42,989 nt of DNA from Calditrichota bacterium. GTDB taxonomy: Bacteria > Calditrichota > Calditrichia > Calditrichales > J004. Below the pieces are notes generated by a model, which was not told the origin of the DNA, did no database searches, and saw only the letters and a list, made by a program, of their open reading frames with translations. Position 1 is the first letter of the stretch, and each line of letters opens with the position of its first letter. The position numbers were made by a program, and so were the translations under genes. Location: contig RFFS01000195.1 of NCBI GenBank assembly GCA_003696775.1, positions 1 through 42,989 of the forward strand, read 5' to 3'. This document shows, piece after piece, positions 254-9,272 of the stretch.

Positions 254-2479
254 ATGGGGAAACAACTGAATCGACGTGAATTTATTAAAATCGCCGGCAT
301 GGGTGTAGGGGGCATGGCCCTGGCTTCAAGCGCGTTAAAGCCCTTTTCATTATTTGCGCAACCTGCGGTGAACGAAGCTTTGATGGCAACCGGCAGCGGC
401 GGAGCGACCCCCACCTACTGCGAAATATGTTTTTGGAAATGTGCCGGCTGGGTGCATAAAAAAGACGGACAACCCTGGAAAATCATCGGCAATCCGGATG
501 ATACGCACAGCAACGGCCGCTTTTGCCCGCGCGGTACCGGCGGCATCGGTGCCTATTTGGATCCGGACAGGCTTAAAACGCCGTTGATTCGGGTGGAAGA
601 ACGAGGCAAACAGGTTTTTCGCGAAGCCAGTTGGGATGAGGCGTTTACTTATATTGCCGATAAAATGCAGCAAATAAAGGAAAAGTATGGTGCGGAAAGC
701 CTGGCGGCTTTTACGCATGGATCGGGCGGTTCCTATTTTAAAAATGTTATCCGTGCTTTCGGTTCCAATAATATTGCCGCGCCTTCTTACGCGCAATGCC
801 GGGGCCCGCGTGAAGAAGCCTATCTGATGACTTTTGGCGAAGGCGTCGGTTCTCCGGAAAGAACGGATATCGCCAATACCAAATGCCTGGTGCTGATCGG
901 TTCCCATATCGGTGAAAACATGCATAACGGTCAGGTGCAGGAATTCACCCAGGCGCATATGAGCGGCGCGACCGTCATTACCGTTGATCCGCGTTTTTCC
1001 ACAGCGGCCAGTAAATCCAAATATTGGCTGCCGATTAAACCGGCCACGGATACGGCCTTGTTGCTGGCCTGGATTCATGTGATCATCGAGGAAGAGCTTT
1101 ACGACAAGGAATATGTTAAAAAATATACCTATGGCTTTGAAGAATTGAAAAAAGCGGTCCGTCACAACACTCCGGAATGGGCTTACCCCATCACAACCAT
1201 CAAACCCCATGTTATACGACAAACCGCGCGGGAAATGGCCGCGGCCGCGCCCTCGGTAATCATACATCCTGGCCGGCACGTTACCTGGTATGGCGATGAT
1301 ACCCAGCGGGTAAGAGCGGGCGCCATACTGAACGCTCTGCTCGGTTCATGGGGACGCCGGGGCGGTTTTTACGCACCGGTGAAAGCGCATGTACCCAAAC
1401 CGAAACATCCGCCCTATCCCAAGCCCAAAAAAGAATGGCGCGATGCCCTGCCCGGAAAATATCCGCTGGCCAATCTCTCGTTATCCACGGCCATTCGCGA
1501 TATAACGGTGGAATCGCCGGTGGATGATTTTGCGATCAAGGGATGGTTTGTTTACGGCACCAACCTGATACAAACATTGCCTCAACCGGAACTGACCAAA
1601 AAGGCCATTCAAAACCTCGATTTACTGGTGGCCATTGATATCATGCCCTCTGAAATAACCGGTTGGGCCGATGTGGTGTTGCCGGAATGTACCTATCTGG
1701 AACGCTACGATGATTTGCGTACCTCTCCCGGACGTATTCCCGCCATCGCCCTGCGCGCGCCGGCTTTTGAACCGAAATACAATTCCAAACCGGCCTATTG
1801 GATGGCGGTGCAACTGGCCAGGCGCCTGGGACTTTCGGAATACTTCCCGTATGAGCGTATAGAGGACTATCTTGATTACAGACTGAAAGCCGTCGGCAGC
1901 AGTTTGGAAGAGATGAAAAAGCTCGGTGTTAAAAATTTACCACTTGAAGAAGACCTTTACTTCCTTAATGGCGAGCCTTATGAATTTGCCACGCCGAGCG
2001 GTAAAATCGAACTTTATTCAAATACCCTGGCAGAATACGGTTTTGATCCCATTCCGCGTTATGAGGCCCATGAGGAACCACCGGATGGATTTTACAGGTT
2101 ATTGTATGGACGCGCGCCGATGCATTCCTTTGGTCGAACCACCAATAATCCGGTGTTAACGGAATTGAAAATAGAAAATGAAGTATGGATACATCCCAAA
2201 GTGGCCCGGGAATGGGGCATCGAAAACGGTTCTTATATCCGTCTTGAAAATCAGGACAGTGTTATCTCCAATAAAATAAAAGTAAAAGTCACGGAGCGTA
2301 TCCGGCATGATTGTGTGTACATGGTGCACGGCTTTGGGCATACTCAAAAGCAGTTGCATCGCGGATTCAACCGCGGCGCGGATGACACCCAATTAATCAC
2401 ACGGGTCAAAACAGACCCGATCATGGGTGGTACGGGCATGCGTGTTAATTTTGTGACTTTTAGGAAGGAGGTGGCCTGA
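254..2479 (+). CDS. psrA: Molybdopterin oxidoreductase, polysulfide/thiosulfate reductase catalytic subunit (PsrA/PhsA-like)
   Basis: This 741-residue protein is the catalytic subunit of a periplasmic molybdopterin enzyme of the DMSO reductase family. A twin-arginine signal (N-R-R-E-F-I-K, residues 6-12) precedes a hydrophobic stretch. A 4Fe-4S site follows, with Cys56, Cys59, Cys63 and Cys91. Cys182, in A-Q-C-R-G-P, sits where polysulfide and thiosulfate reductases carry their molybdenum-ligating Cys; DMSO and TMAO reductases have Ser there. A C-terminal molybdopterin-dinucleotide domain completes a full-length chain. The start has a strong ribosome site (GGAGGGAG). The stop overlaps the psrB start by one base. 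The following PsrB, PsrC, YedE-type transporters and rhodanese support a sulfur substrate (polysulfide, thiosulfate or elemental sulfur). Arsenate or tetrathionate reduction cannot be excluded from sequence alone. Confidence 0.85.
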   Translation: MGKQLNRREFIKIAGMGVGGMALASSALKPFSLFAQPAVNEALMATGSGGATPTYCEICFWKCAGWVHKKDGQPWKIIGNPDDTHSNGRFCPRGTGGIGAYLDPDRLKTPLIRVEERGKQVFREASWDEAFTYIADKMQQIKEKYGAESLAAFTHGSGGSYFKNVIRAFGSNNIAAPSYAQCRGPREEAYLMTFGEGVGSPERTDIANTKCLVLIGSHIGENMHNGQVQEFTQAHMSGATVITVDPRFSTAASKSKYWLPIKPATDTALLLAWIHVIIEEELYDKEYVKKYTYGFEELKKAVRHNTPEWAYPITTIKPHVIRQTAREMAAAAPSVIIHPGRHVTWYGDDTQRVRAGAILNALLGSWGRRGGFYAPVKAHVPKPKHPPYPKPKKEWRDALPGKYPLANLSLSTAIRDITVESPVDDFAIKGWFVYGTNLIQTLPQPELTKKAIQNLDLLVAIDIMPSEITGWADVVLPECTYLERYDDLRTSPGRIPAIALRAPAFEPKYNSKPAYWMAVQLARRLGLSEYFPYERIEDYLDYRLKAVGSSLEEMKKLGVKNLPLEEDLYFLNGEPYEFATPSGKIELYSNTLAEYGFDPIPRYEAHEEPPDGFYRLLYGRAPMHSFGRTTNNPVLTELKIENEVWIHPKVAREWGIENGSYIRLENQDSVISNKIKVKVTERIRHDCVYMVHGFGHTQKQLHRGFNRGADDTQLITRVKTDPIMGGTGMRVNFVTFRKEVA

Positions 2480-3012
2480 TGCGTTACGCCATGGCGATAG
2501 ATACCAAAAGATGTGTGGGCTGTGCCGATTGCGTTGTAGCCTGTCAAAGGGAAAATAATGTGCCGGAAGGCTTTTGCCGTGACTGGATTGTGGAAGAAAC
2601 AACCGGAACATTTCCGGAACTGCAACTCGAAATCCGTTCCGAGCGCTGCAACCATTGCGCCGACGCGCCGTGCGTGCGCTGCTGCCCCACAGAGGCCAGT
2701 CATTATGAAGAAGGCGGCGTGGTGTTGGTGGATCATGACTCCTGTATCGGCTGTAAGGCCTGCATCGCCTCCTGTCCTTATGACGCGCGTTTTGTTCATC
2801 CCGAGGGATATGTGGATAAATGTACCTTCTGCATTCATCGCGTACGTGAAGGCAAACAACCGGCCTGTGTGGAAGTGTGCCCGACACATGCCATGATATT
2901 TGGTGATTTGGATGATAAAAACAGTGAAATTTCCAAAGCGCTGCGTACGCGTAAATACAAAACGCTGATCCCGGAAGCGGGTACCGATCCGCATGTATTT
3001 TATCTGTTATAA
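2479..3012 (+). CDS. psrB: Four-cluster 4Fe-4S ferredoxin subunit (PsrB/NrfC-like)
   Basis: This 177-residue protein is the electron-transfer subunit that passes electrons from the membrane subunit to the molybdenum subunit. Four sets of cysteines are visible: C12/C15/C18/C22, C57/C60/C65/C69 (C68 is an extra neighbour), C89/C92/C95/C99 and C115/C118/C130/C134. This is the PsrB/PhsB/DmsB/NrfC layout with four 4Fe-4S clusters. There is no signal peptide. As is usual for the family, it is presumably co-exported with the Tat-bearing catalytic subunit. It overlaps psrA by one base (TGATG), so translation is probably coupled, and psrC follows after 18 bases. Confidence 0.88.
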   Translation: MRYAMAIDTKRCVGCADCVVACQRENNVPEGFCRDWIVEETTGTFPELQLEIRSERCNHCADAPCVRCCPTEASHYEEGGVVLVDHDSCIGCKACIASCPYDARFVHPEGYVDKCTFCIHRVREGKQPACVEVCPTHAMIFGDLDDKNSEISKALRTRKYKTLIPEAGTDPHVFYLL

Positions 3013-3030: not shown

Positions 3031-3996
3031 ATGAAAGAAGTTGCCATTACATCCGGACGTATGAACCACGGGGTGGACCCCTTGTTGCACGCCTGGGGCT
3101 GGGAGATTCCGTTGTACCTGTTTTTAGGTGGTTTGGTGGCCGGCATATTGTTTTTTAGTGCATTTTTCTATTTGCGACATCGGGAAAATGTTTTTACCGC
3201 GGCCATCAAAGTCGCGCCGCTTTATACACCGGTGTTCCTGGCCATCGGTTTGGCGGCCCTGTTTTTGGACCTGAGCCATAAACTCTACTTTTGGCGATTA
3301 TACACCACCATTCGTTGGGAATCGCCCATGTCGTGGGGCGCCTGGACGTTGTTATTTATTTTTCCTTTGAGTGTCATTTGGGCAGCCTTTTGGGTAAAAG
3401 ATGTTTATCCCAATTGGGACTGGAAATTTCCCATTATCGAAAAAACCATAGCATGGCTGGCACAGTTTAAAAAATGGTTCGCCTGGTCGTTGATTCTTTT
3501 TTCCGGTATTCTGGGTATGTACACGGGTATATTGCTTTCCGCTTTTAACGCCCGTCCCTTCTGGAATACCTCCATACTCGGTCCGTTATTTCTTGTATCG
3601 GGATTGTCCACGGGCGCGGCTTTTATATTATTGATCAGCCGCTCCGAACAGGAACGGCACCGTTTCAGCCAGATCGATTCGTTTTTGATCGGTACCGAGC
3701 TGTTTTTAATTATTCACATGTTTATGGGCTTTTTGGCCAGTACATCGGTGCAGATACACGCCGCGGAAATGTTTTTAGGCGGCCCCTATACGGCCATCTT
3801 TTGGACGTTTGTGGTGGGTATCGGTTTGTTGCTGCCCCTGCTTATTGAAATTATGGAATTACGCGGCGTGACGGTTCCGGCTGTTATTCCCGCCATGTTG
3901 GTATTGTTTGGCGGCCTTATGCTGCGCTTTGTTGTGGTGGATGCGGGACAATCTTCCCGTTGGTTGTATAAATTTATGGAACAACTGGTGTTCTGA
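3031..3996 (+). CDS. psrC: NrfD/PsrC-family quinone-binding membrane subunit
   Basis: This 321-residue polytopic membrane protein has about eight or nine hydrophobic segments, beginning with G-W-E-I-P-L-Y-L-F-L-G-G-L, a start typical of NrfD/PsrC proteins. The family anchors the catalytic and ferredoxin subunits to the membrane and exchanges electrons with the quinone pool. It lacks the haem of NapC-like subunits. A ribosome site (GGAATGGAG) precedes the ATG. It is third in the sulfur operon and is followed after 15 bases by the first YedE-type gene. The family is clear; the direction of quinone chemistry (menaquinol oxidation during sulfur reduction) is inferred from the operon. Confidence 0.85.
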   Translation: MKEVAITSGRMNHGVDPLLHAWGWEIPLYLFLGGLVAGILFFSAFFYLRHRENVFTAAIKVAPLYTPVFLAIGLAALFLDLSHKLYFWRLYTTIRWESPMSWGAWTLLFIFPLSVIWAAFWVKDVYPNWDWKFPIIEKTIAWLAQFKKWFAWSLILFSGILGMYTGILLSAFNARPFWNTSILGPLFLVSGLSTGAAFILLISRSEQERHRFSQIDSFLIGTELFLIIHMFMGFLASTSVQIHAAEMFLGGPYTAIFWTFVVGIGLLLPLLIEIMELRGVTVPAVIPAMLVLFGGLMLRFVVVDAGQSSRWLYKFMEQLVF

Positions 3997-4011: not shown

Positions 4012-4515
4012 ATGAAAGAAAAACCCTTTTGGTCTCCGTATGCCGGCGGCATCGGATTAGGTATAACCCTGCTGTTGGCTTTTGTATTCATGGGACGCGG
4101 TTTGGGGGCATCCGGCGCCATGATGCGTTTCACAACCTGGGTTGTGGATGTGTTTGCCCATGACCATGTAATGGCCAACCCCTATTTTGCCAAATACGCG
4201 GAACATCCCTTCAGCAACTGGCTGGTATTCGAAATCATTGGTGTTATGATCGGCGGGTTTTTATCCGGCATGCTGGCGGGGCGTAATAAATGGCGCACGG
4301 GGCGCGGCCCGAATATAACCAAACACAAACGCTGGCTTCTGGCTTTTATCGGTGGCGCCATAATGGGTTTTGGCGCGCGCCTTTCCCGTGGATGCACCAG
4401 TGGTTTGGCCCTGACCGGAGGCGCGACCCTGGCTGTTGGCGGCTGGGTATTTATGTTTGCCGTTTTTGGCGCCGCGTTTGCCACGGCATATTTTGTACGT
4501 AAACAATGGATATAG
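4012..4515 (+). CDS. YeeE/YedE-family half-size transporter, first copy
   Basis: This 167-residue membrane protein has about four hydrophobic segments. The family signature G-A-R-L-S-R-G-C-T-S-G lies at residues 121-131, and Cys128 is its only Cys. Full-length YeeE/YedE (TsuA) proteins import thiosulfate through conserved membrane Cys residues that relay sulfur. Here the protein is about half that length, and a second half follows 6 bases downstream, so the two probably form one heteromeric channel as in split (PmpA/PmpB-type) pairs. Its place behind psrABC suggests movement of reduced sulfur compounds across the inner membrane. The substrate is inferred. Confidence 0.8.
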   Translation: MKEKPFWSPYAGGIGLGITLLLAFVFMGRGLGASGAMMRFTTWVVDVFAHDHVMANPYFAKYAEHPFSNWLVFEIIGVMIGGFLSGMLAGRNKWRTGRGPNITKHKRWLLAFIGGAIMGFGARLSRGCTSGLALTGGATLAVGGWVFMFAVFGAAFATAYFVRKQWI

Positions 4516-4521
4516 GGGGCG

Positions 4522-5115
4522 ATGATGGCACCATTTTATAAATACGGATTTTTTAGCGAACAAACCGGGCTGATTGTGGCCTTGATACTGGGGATCAGTT
4601 TCGGATTTTGGTTGGAACGCTCCGGTTTCGGGTACAGTCGTAAACTGGCTTTGCAATTCTATTTTAAAGATAATACCGTCTTATACGTGATGTTTACCGC
4701 CATATTGGTGGCCATGCTGGGCGTCCTTTTCTTTTCCCTGTTTGGCTGGCTGGATATTACCAAAATATATATCAACCCAACCTATATTTGGGCGCAACTG
4801 ATCGGTGGCCTGATATTGGGTGTGGGATTTGCCATTGGCGGATATTGCCCGGGCACTTCGGTGGTGGGCGCGGTAACCGGCCATATAGATGCCTTGTTTT
4901 TTCTGGGCGGCGCCATGACCGGCATGTTTGTCTTTGGTGAAATGTTTCCTTCCATTGAAGATTTATATAACTGGGGTTATATGGGCAATGTGCGCCTTTC
5001 TGATGTGTTGAATGTATCCAGCGGCGTAGTGGCTTTTGCAGCGGTTGTCCTGGCCATAGTGATGTTTAAAGGCGCCGAATGGGCTCAAAATCGTTTTGGT
5101 AAGGAGGTGCTGTAA
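4522..5115 (+). CDS. YeeE/YedE-family half-size transporter, second copy
   Basis: This 197-residue membrane protein pairs with the preceding gene. It carries the second-half family signature G-G-Y-C-P-G-T-S at residues 106-113 with Cys109, its only Cys. Several hydrophobic helices surround it. The start ATGATG at 4522/4525 leaves the exact first Met open. The stop overlaps the start of the rhodanese-like gene by one base (TAATG). The three downstream genes are therefore probably translated in a coupled way and act together: two channel halves with one buried Cys each, and a periplasmic sulfur-handling partner. Confidence 0.8.
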   Translation: MMAPFYKYGFFSEQTGLIVALILGISFGFWLERSGFGYSRKLALQFYFKDNTVLYVMFTAILVAMLGVLFFSLFGWLDITKIYINPTYIWAQLIGGLILGVGFAIGGYCPGTSVVGAVTGHIDALFFLGGAMTGMFVFGEMFPSIEDLYNWGYMGNVRLSDVLNVSSGVVAFAAVVLAIVMFKGAEWAQNRFGKEVL

Positions 5116-5744
5116 TGAATATATCTTCCCAAAATATTGGCTTTGCCGTGCTCTTTTTGTTGGGATTGATCCTCGCTTTCAGCCCGGTGGATGAAATGAA
5201 TGTGAGCAAGGTGGCCGACAAAGAACTGCTGCTTTCCCAGTTACATAGTCAAAGCAATTATGTGGAACCGGAAGAAGTGGCCGACTGGATTATCAACAAG
5301 GAGCCGGGCTTACAAATTGTGGATATCCGTACCGGGGAAGATTTTGCTAAATACCACATACCGGGCGCCGTGCACATTCCTCTGGAACGCCTTTTGGATA
5401 AAGCCTCACTGGAAATGCTGAATAGCGACGGCACCATTGTTTTGGCTTCCAACGGCAACACTAAAGCTTCTCAGGCCTGGCTGCTGCTTAAGGAAAAAGG
5501 CTACGATGATGTGTATGCGTTGCATGGCGGCATGAATTACTGGGTGGAAATTTTCAGTGCGCCGAAAAAACCGCAGGCGCCCTATACCGATGATGAAATC
5601 TTTCGGTATCAATTTCGTGTGGCCGCCGGACCGGTGATGATGGGTAAACAAGTGGTGCCGCAACAGCAAACCACGGTTACGCCACGCAAAACCATCAAAC
5701 CGCGCCGCCGCGCGGCGAAGAAAAAAGTCGATGAAGGTTGTTAG
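5115..5744 (+). CDS. Membrane-anchored rhodanese-like protein without catalytic Cys but with a C-terminal Cys
   Basis: This 209-residue protein has an N-terminal hydrophobic anchor (residues 8-24) and a rhodanese-like domain at about 52-148, with the usual V-D-I-R and H-I-P-G-A motifs and a Y-A-L-H-G-G-M-N-Y-W end. The active-site loop reads V-L-A-S-N-G-N-T-K-A, so Ser112 stands where rhodaneses have the persulfide-forming Cys. The codon is TCC and there is no sign of a frameshift. A Pro-rich stretch and a very basic tail (about 190-204) lead to the final residues D-E-G-C. Cys209 is the only Cys in the chain. The anchor suggests a periplasmic, membrane-tethered position beside PsrA. Whether it carries sulfur on the terminal Cys is an inference. 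Confidence 0.8.
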   Translation: MNISSQNIGFAVLFLLGLILAFSPVDEMNVSKVADKELLLSQLHSQSNYVEPEEVADWIINKEPGLQIVDIRTGEDFAKYHIPGAVHIPLERLLDKASLEMLNSDGTIVLASNGNTKASQAWLLLKEKGYDDVYALHGGMNYWVEIFSAPKKPQAPYTDDEIFRYQFRVAAGPVMMGKQVVPQQQTTVTPRKTIKPRRRAAKKKVDEGC

Positions 5745-5762: not shown

Positions 5763-5792
5763 AAGCCCGCTTTTCCCGGCGGGCTTTTTTTA
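5763..5792 (+). terminator. Intrinsic terminator of the sulfur operon
   Basis: AAGCCCGC (5763-5770) pairs with GCGGGCTT (5779-5786) across an 8-base loop and runs into a T tract. It lies 18 bases after the rhodanese stop codon and closes the six-gene operon. Confidence 0.85.
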
Positions 5793-7817: not shown

Positions 7818-9200
7818 CTATCCTATCAGTAAATCTTCTTTTGCCAGTTGGTATTTAACCGATTTTTTTTGACCGATGGCCAGCGCCAGGGTTAACGGGC
7901 CGAGACGCCCGATGAACATCAGCGCGGTGATCAGCCAGCGTCCGGCCTGCGATAAATGCGGGGTAACGCCCGTGGAAAGGCCCACGGTTCCAAAGGCCGA
8001 AGTCGCTTCAAACAATAATTCCAAAAACATGCCGCGGCTCTCCTGATGGCTGACCCCTTTCAGCTCCGTAAACAACAGCAAAGTTGTGAAAAATACTATG
8101 ACCAACGAAGCGAAGATGACAAGGGTAACCGCTTTGGAAACGGCGGTTTCCGGTATGCTGCGGTTCATGATTTCAGCATGTTCCCGGTTTTTAAAGCGCG
8201 CCCGGGCCAGAGCCAGAATGGTGGCCAGGGTGGTGGTTTTGATACCGCCGCCGGTGGATGAAGGCGACGCGCCAATGAACATCAATATAATGATAAAAAA
8301 CAGTGTGGCGTTACTTAAGGTGGCAATGTCCACGGAATTAAAGCCTGCCGTGCGTGTGGTAACGCTCTGAAAAAAGGCTTCCAGTATTTTTTTTCCCCAG
8401 GGAAGGTGGCTCCAGGCGCTACCCCATTCAAATAAAATAAAGGCGGTGAAACCGAATGCCAGTAAAAAAGCGGACATGCTTATGACCACCCGTGTATGCA
8501 AACTAAATGATTTAAAACGCAAGGGCCGTTTTTGATGTTGTAATTCAAATAAAACGATGAAGCCCGCTCCCCCGGCGATAATCAAGGCCGAAATCACCAT
8601 TATTACGGTCACGTCGCCCTGGTAGGATACAAGGCTGTCGCTGAACAGGGCAAAACCGGCGTTGCAAAAGGCCGACACCGCATGAAACAACCCAAACCAG
8701 AGCGCCTTTCCGATAGGCATATCCATGCTGAAACGCAGCGATAATAATAAAGCTCCGATCAACTCGGTGATAAGCGTGGCAAAGAAAATGGTGCGCAACA
8801 GATGGCGCATGCCGCGCATCGGCATCTGGCTGAATGCCGCCTCAAGCATATCGCGGCCGCCAAGTGAAAGCCGTCCGGCGAATAACGTGGCAAAAGCAAC
8901 GGAAAAGGTCATAATCCCCAGCCCGCCCATTTGTATTAATAAAAGGATAATCAATTGACCCGCAAAGGTAAACCTGGTGGCGGTATCCACGACGATTAAA
9001 CCGGTTACACAGGTGGCGGAGGTGGAAGTGAACAGGGCATCCGTGAAAGAGAGCGGCGCGCCGTGCACGGCAAACGGTTGATGTAATAAAACCGCTCCGG
9101 TAACAATGATACCCGCAAAACTCAATAGGAACAGGCGTTCCGGGATGAAAAAGTTTTTTATCCGTACCCAAATTAATCGACTACCCGAAAAGAATGTCAT
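7818..9200 (-). CDS. ktrB: Potassium channel/transporter subunit KtrB (TrkH/KtrB family)
   Basis: This 460-residue membrane protein has the four selectivity-filter loops of the Trk/Ktr/HKT superfamily. They contain T-S-A-T-C-V-T-G, F-C-N-A-G-F, T-R-T-A-G-F-N and F-G-T-V-G-L-S-T-G, each with the filter glycine. The length and missing N-terminal extension favour KtrB over TrkH. The protein imports K+, probably with Na+ coupling, and is gated by the adjacent KtrA. The ATG at 9200 is preceded by a modest AAGG ribosome site. Just upstream, at 9209-9230, lies the second copy of the 22-base repeated element. Confidence 0.88.
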   Translation of the reverse strand: MTFFSGSRLIWVRIKNFFIPERLFLLSFAGIIVTGAVLLHQPFAVHGAPLSFTDALFTSTSATCVTGLIVVDTATRFTFAGQLIILLLIQMGGLGIMTFSVAFATLFAGRLSLGGRDMLEAAFSQMPMRGMRHLLRTIFFATLITELIGALLLSLRFSMDMPIGKALWFGLFHAVSAFCNAGFALFSDSLVSYQGDVTVIMVISALIIAGGAGFIVLFELQHQKRPLRFKSFSLHTRVVISMSAFLLAFGFTAFILFEWGSAWSHLPWGKKILEAFFQSVTTRTAGFNSVDIATLSNATLFFIIILMFIGASPSSTGGGIKTTTLATILALARARFKNREHAEIMNRSIPETAVSKAVTLVIFASLVIVFFTTLLLFTELKGVSHQESRGMFLELLFEATSAFGTVGLSTGVTPHLSQAGRWLITALMFIGRLGPLTLALAIGQKKSVKYQLAKEDLLIG

Positions 9201-9208
9201 CCTTAAAT

Positions 9209-9230
9209 CCGGTTTGTATTTTGTGAAAAT
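9209..9230 (+). repeat. 22-base intergenic element, copy 2
   Basis: CCGG, one variable base, then TTGTATTTTGTGAAAAT, matching 5826-5847 with a single difference. It starts 9 bases upstream of the ktrB start codon but points away from ktrB, opposite to the PilZ copy. The near-palindromic core makes orientation less important if a dimeric protein binds it. The match is seen; the function is unknown. Confidence 0.4.
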
Positions 9231-9245
9231 GGGGCTGGTAGAAAG

Positions 9246-9272
9246 GAAAACAGGCCCGTCCGGAGACGAGCC
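9246..9272 (-). terminator. Probable terminator of the SlyD-like gene
   Basis: On the - strand GGCTCGTC and GACGGGCC (9272-9253, one G-T pair) form an 8-base stem with a 4-base loop. A T-rich stretch follows (TGTTTTCC). It lies just downstream of the gene that ends at 9296. Confidence 0.6.

Follow-up and report, generated by a model that had tools for sequence, protein, structure and literature searches.

By sequence, the protein encoded by the last gene of a psr operon in the window (i.e. the whole stretch of 42,989 nt that was analysed) is not a functioning rhodanese, having lost the catalytic Cys while keeping a single Cys as its final residue, and it is probably a periplasmic, membrane-anchored arm that carries sulfur for a split YeeE/YedE channel, whose two half-channel genes lie immediately upstream. 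Across the genomes compared, its gene is tied to these two, and fusions with the second of them recur.

The open reading frame (P0001, hereafter the tail rhodanese; positions 5115 to 5744, forward strand) encodes 209 amino acids. Pfam recognises a rhodanese domain (PF00581, E 8.9e-18) at residues 52–145 (5268 to 5549) and no other family, and a Foldseek search with the AlphaFold2 model likewise returned rhodanese domains. The model itself, built with 52 relatives in the alignment, is good (mean pLDDT 89) and consists of a helix at residues 5–22 (5127 to 5180), predicted to span the membrane and followed by Pro24, which is invariant in 61 relatives, then the rhodanese core and a helix at residues 159–175, beyond which the chain runs to its end without regular structure (pLDDT about 66–86). 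At the catalytic position the loop reads V-L-A-S-N-G-N-T-K-A, with Ser112 (TCC, 5448 to 5450) at the site of the rhodanese Cys; the only Cys of the protein is Cys209 (TGT, 5739 to 5741), in a -D-E-G-C end that directly precedes a TAG stop. The earlier note had described an anchored rhodanese-like protein with Ser at the active site and a lone terminal Cys, on which reading frame, Pfam and AlphaFold2 agree. It had also called the tail strongly basic and Pro-rich: the flexible tail (residues 175–209; 5637 to 5741) is indeed strongly basic, with 10 Lys/Arg and two Asp/Glu in the last 35 residues, but with three Pro it is only mildly Pro-rich.

The gene closes a compact unit, psrA-psrB-psrC-yedEa-yedEb-rhodanese, all on the forward strand, and is followed by a hairpin and T run (5765 to 5791, read from the sequence) that is likely the operon terminator. 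The first gene (254 to 2479; PF00384/PF01568/PF04879) encodes a PsrA/PhsA-like molybdopterin catalytic subunit with a twin-Arg-like start (NRREFIKIAG), for which PhsA is the top NCBIfam match, yet below the PhsA cut-off. It is followed by genes for a PsrB-like 4Fe-4S subunit (2479 to 3012; PF13247, E 4.4e-24) and a PsrC/NrfD-like membrane subunit (3031 to 3996; PF03916, E 5.1e-45). The next two products are the halves of a YeeE/YedE channel, each covering part of PF04143 and each with one conserved Cys, as in known split channels: YedEa (4012 to 4515; PF04143 positions 176–308) is the PmpA-like C-terminal half with its Cys in RGCTSG, and YedEb (4522 to 5115; PF04143 positions 1–154) is the PmpB-like N-terminal half with its Cys in GYCPGT. 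Translational overlap, which had been proposed for the tail rhodanese with the half-channels and PsrABC, occurs only at psrA/psrB and yedEb/rhodanese, whereas the other junctions have gaps of 6–18 nt.

Conservation was assessed on 61 non-redundant relatives from several phyla, and column invariance on a 52-row alignment. The Cys is the last residue in 49 of the 61 and the penultimate one in a further 10 (59/61 together), in termini of the form -DEGC/-EGC, -GGC, -GGCS or -GGCG, and 53 members have no Cys besides the terminal one. The active-site column holds Ser in 51, Ala in five, Gly in three and Thr in two, and Cys in none, while the surrounding pattern SNG-x-(T/S) is well conserved in most members. 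Invariant columns are P24, D70, R72, L136, G208 and C209. Since the terminal Cys is written as TGT in 35 and TGC in 24 relatives, and all four Gly codons occur, selection appears to act on the residue itself. A terminal selenocysteine was dropped as a candidate, the codon being TGT or TGC in all relatives and all three stop codons being in use. Orthologues at genus, family, order and class level have one Cys, placed last in -EGC, down to approximately 30% identity, and wider searches added members from KSB1, Bacteroidales (Mariniphaga, Sunxiuqinia, Mangrovibacterium) and several further phyla. As a background, Cys falls within the last three residues in about 10 of ~556 other reading frames (those of at least 200 aa within the loci compared), none of which has the motif [E/G/S][G/S]C.

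There are two exceptions. In one locus (L093, 3539–4183) the frame is shifted just before the tail and the other frame encodes VQGGCS, for which reason a true loss of the tail was rejected; in the other (L043) the tail is carried by an adjoining secreted MBL/triple-rhodanese protein that ends in -RKGAGC. A further locus (L102) has tandem tail rhodaneses (7971–8597 and 8617–9249), both with -EGC ends. Thus the expectation that Ser-for-Cys and the terminal Cys would be conserved together in psrABC/yedE neighbourhoods was borne out, and no homologue that combines a normal active-site Cys with the absence of a terminal one was seen in the tail rhodanese family. These alignments show that no functional residue is conserved more strongly than the terminal Cys, and that the active site of the rhodanese domain is either dead or in decay.

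These counts also bear on the simplest alternative, namely that the protein is an ordinary periplasmic sulfurtransferase of the Sud/SbdP type that feeds Psr, with an incidental terminal Cys. The operon type and the fold family are shared, and Sud (1qxn) is among the profile matches of P0001 (E 8.5e-8), but such an enzyme requires the active-site Cys that is missing in 61 of 61, and the conservation of the terminal Cys argues against an incidental residue, which makes this reading scarcely credible.

Which partner the tail rhodanese serves is indicated by its neighbours. The order YedEa-YedEb-tail protein recurs in nearly every locus with sufficient flank, and the 21 genomes with a tail rhodanese among the 40 of the phylum are the identical 21 that have a strong YedEb match. 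In Calditrichota, KSB1 and Bacteroidales the genes upstream are usually those for PsrABC. Elsewhere, a single reading frame (PF04143+PF00581) with a -GGC or -GGCG end encodes both YedEb and tail rhodanese, and the place of PsrABC is taken by an OTR-type octahaem cytochrome c (PF11783) together with a cytochrome b561 (PF01292). The channel is thus the constant partner and the sulfur enzyme the variable one; of the two partners that had been proposed, PsrA and the channel, only the half-channels are constant. The two cytochromes adjoin half-channels and tail rhodanese in L108, L111, L113, L114 and L107, a unit for which no description was found in the open-access literature searched.

A prospective search, with the YedEb of the window alone as the query against 384 genomes around another lineage, yielded 30 loci, one of which was set aside because it is cut by a contig end. 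A terminal-Cys tail was present in 28 of the 29 complete loci (18 fused to YedEb and 10 as the next gene), loci that are partly dependent, as six of the 28 come from genomes seen earlier and many others from one genome family. Half-channels without an adjoining tail gene were found in L207, and in seven classical split YeeE loci (30–36% identity) neither YedEb nor its neighbours carried the tail (0/7).

The fusions also show what becomes of the rhodanese domain. Their loops are degraded (VAEHES, IAKDLK, VIGNDE), and in L176 and L179 the domain is undetected by Pfam while the ends -GGGCGG and -GGGC, respectively, are kept, so that the tail outlives the fold. (An AlphaFold2 model of a YedEb-rhodanese fusion was poor, with pLDDT 49, and was set aside.) This bears on the possibility that the tail Cys folds back into an emptied pocket, either that of its own rhodanese domain or that of an adjacent one, and restores catalysis there. 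The SNG-x-(T/S) loop, well conserved in most members as would be expected for anion binding, is in its favour, and with ~35 residues the tail could in principle reach that far; the decayed loops of the fusions and the retention of the tail where the domain has dropped below Pfam detection speak against it, as does L182, which has a normal CKTGGRG loop plus an -EEGC tail. As the main role of the Cys this is unlikely, although it would be compatible with a sulfur carrier as one step of its cycle. The earlier note proposed that the rhodanese fold acts as a docking platform; in line with this, the catalytic Cys has been lost, and L176 and L179 have kept the tail although their fold has decayed.

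The tail is not confined to rhodaneses. In a second operon of two sister genomes a PsrA-like subunit (L140: 9599–11974, reverse strand; L141: 715–3090, forward strand) has a C-terminal extension of 45 residues ending in -SEEDEGC, next to genes for a TorD-like protein, a PsrB-like protein, a cytochrome b561-YedEa fusion and YedEb, and this operon has no tail rhodanese. In an operon of genome G353 the tails of two proteins are nearly identical, PsrB (L180: 8462–9163) ending in -KKGDAAFEDSGC and the YedEb-rhodanese fusion (L180: 10686–11882) in -KKGAAFEDSGC. A rhodanese adjoining PsrAB in G083 combines a normal CKTGGRG loop with an -EEEEEEEGC tail and is possibly an intermediate state, while the rhodanese of a Psr operon without half-channels (L177) is an ordinary one, with a loop Cys and no tail. 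Such an end was also observed on an anchored 120-aa protein after psrCAB that belongs to no Pfam family and ends in -GGEEEEIEGC (L181: 9519–9881), and on a secreted MBL and triple-rhodanese protein ending in -RKGAGC (L106: 3982–6030), which adjoins a YedEb-rhodanese fusion without Cys.

Shuffling of the tail among PsrA, PsrB, rhodanese and channel fusion is linker-like, and could also be expected if the terminal Cys were a disulfide or thioether tether to a channel half, to PsrA/PsrB or to a second copy of the same protein, in which case the tail would be structural and carry no sulfur; a single Cys per protein would suffice for this. However, the fusions retain -GGC/-GGCG even though they are already covalently joined to YedEb, no invariant extra partner Cys occurs within the family (53 of the 61 have no other Cys at all), and the -GGCG/-GGCGG form matches the arm of SoxY. 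A tether is therefore a possibility to keep in mind, but a rather improbable one.

With respect to the side of the membrane, three kinds of tail-bearing protein point to the periplasmic side of the inner membrane, namely a PsrA with a twin-Arg signal, the signal-peptide protein of L106, and rhodanese domains that contain CxxCH (L201, L203, L213); the positive-inside charge statistics of the fusions give a weak signal. In these last three loci the haem motif is inserted in the rhodanese that follows YedEb (e.g. DAVSCGVCH), the end being -REGC, and these proteins are possibly haem-bearing sulfur arms. The presence of CxxCH inside the rhodanese domain of some members, together with the existence of C-terminal motifs that serve as sorting tags, could also suggest that the terminal Cys is a metal or haem ligand or part of a sorting or processing signal. 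This is very improbable, since the Cys stands alone with no conserved ligand nearby, the terminus lacks the adjoining hydrophobic segment typical of sorting tags, and the feature is confined to sulfur-channel operons.

If the tail rhodanese is indeed a sulfur carrier, the rhodanese fold would be the mount of the arm, and the basic or Gly-rich tail with its terminal Cys would swing as a flexible peptide. In the periplasm Cys209 would become persulfidated by sulfane sulfur or polysulfide and pass the sulfur between a sulfur enzyme (PsrA in the window, the octahaem cytochrome in other lineages) and the channel cysteines in RGCTSG and GYCPGT. Transfer could proceed in either direction, with sulfur imported for use in assimilation or in the chemistry of the cytoplasm, or with substrate fed to PsrA. 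Caldithrix abyssi growing on peptone forms sulfide by reduction of sulfur and thiosulfate (PMC5317091), which is compatible with a feed to Psr as well as with import. The proposal of a sulfur arm has passed the comparative test set for it and has strong backing from the comparison of genomes, with the channel instead of PsrA as its fixed partner.

The step by which YeeE-family channels receive sulfur from the periplasm has been described as poorly understood (PMC11582611), and the tail rhodanese family offers a candidate for this step that has one Cys, is covalently attached and belongs to a genetically defined unit. It has cultured members in Mariniphaga sediminis, Sunxiuqinia indica and Mangrovibacterium marinum, to which Caldithrix abyssi can be added if genome G006 is, as is probable, that species. 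In databases the family is hidden as plain ‘rhodanese-like protein’, and the Caldithrix genome paper lists two single-domain sulfur transferases beside psrABC, with the lost catalytic Cys and the tail unmentioned (PMC5317091). In the open-access literature, to which the search was confined (subscription papers lay outside it), no terminal-Cys rhodanese associated with YeeE or Psr was found. The fold alone is no ground for naming such proteins sulfurtransferases.

Among known systems, Sud of Wolinella succinogenes (PDB 1qxn) and SbdP of Aquifex supply sulfur to a Psr-type reductase. They share with the tail rhodanese the fold and the link to such a reductase (psrABC lies upstream of P0001) but have their Cys in the catalytic loop, where the tail rhodanese has lost it and keeps the terminal one; the polysulfide-binding active-site Cys of Sud is accordingly absent from P0001, which has Cys209 only. 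YeeD/TsuB and TusA are also small sulfur-handling proteins that partner a YeeE channel, but they are cytoplasmic and have the TusA fold, whereas the tail rhodanese has a membrane anchor and is most likely periplasmic. DsrC (PF04358) likewise has a flexible arm with a functional Cys near its C-terminal end (-GCV), but on another fold, in the cytoplasm and with DsrAB as its partner; a DsrC-like protein with a -PQGCV end (L144: 13544–13861, reverse strand) is encoded near the psr operon of G006, a one-contig genome of 4.98 Mb. The split channels PmpA/PmpB and YedE1E2 are made of two halves, each with a single Cys (PMC11582611); these are the same two half-channels as those described here, but their classical loci lack the tail protein.

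The closest parallel is SoxY of SoxYZ, in which the Cys of a GGCGG arm binds sulfur (PMC6067878) and from which transfer to the cysteines of the channel SoxT has been proposed (PMC11582611). Both proteins have a flexible C-terminal arm with a Cys near its end, SoxY is periplasmic, and its partner SoxT is YeeE-like, so that the tail rhodanese would be to the YeeE/YedE half-channels what SoxYZ is proposed to be to SoxT. The comparison had been made on the -EGC end of P0001 and is strengthened by its relatives, which end in -GGC, -GGCS, -GGCG and in one case -GGGCGG. The folds are unrelated, however, and the tail protein is membrane-anchored or fused to the channel; the SoxY domain (PF13501) is absent from P0001 in the Pfam scan and has no match among the 40 genomes of the phylum, and scores above the cut-off in 15 of the 385 genomes of the wider sample. 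On balance we lean slightly towards a broader interpretation, in which the portable arm -(E/G/S)GC(G/S), carried by a dead rhodanese, YedEb, PsrA or PsrB, would be a general sulfur-channelling module: it would physically link a sulfur reductase in the periplasm with a sulfur channel in the membrane, so that reactive sulfane sulfur is never released. Such a system would be similar to SoxY but would have arisen independently, in many anaerobic phyla and on another fold.
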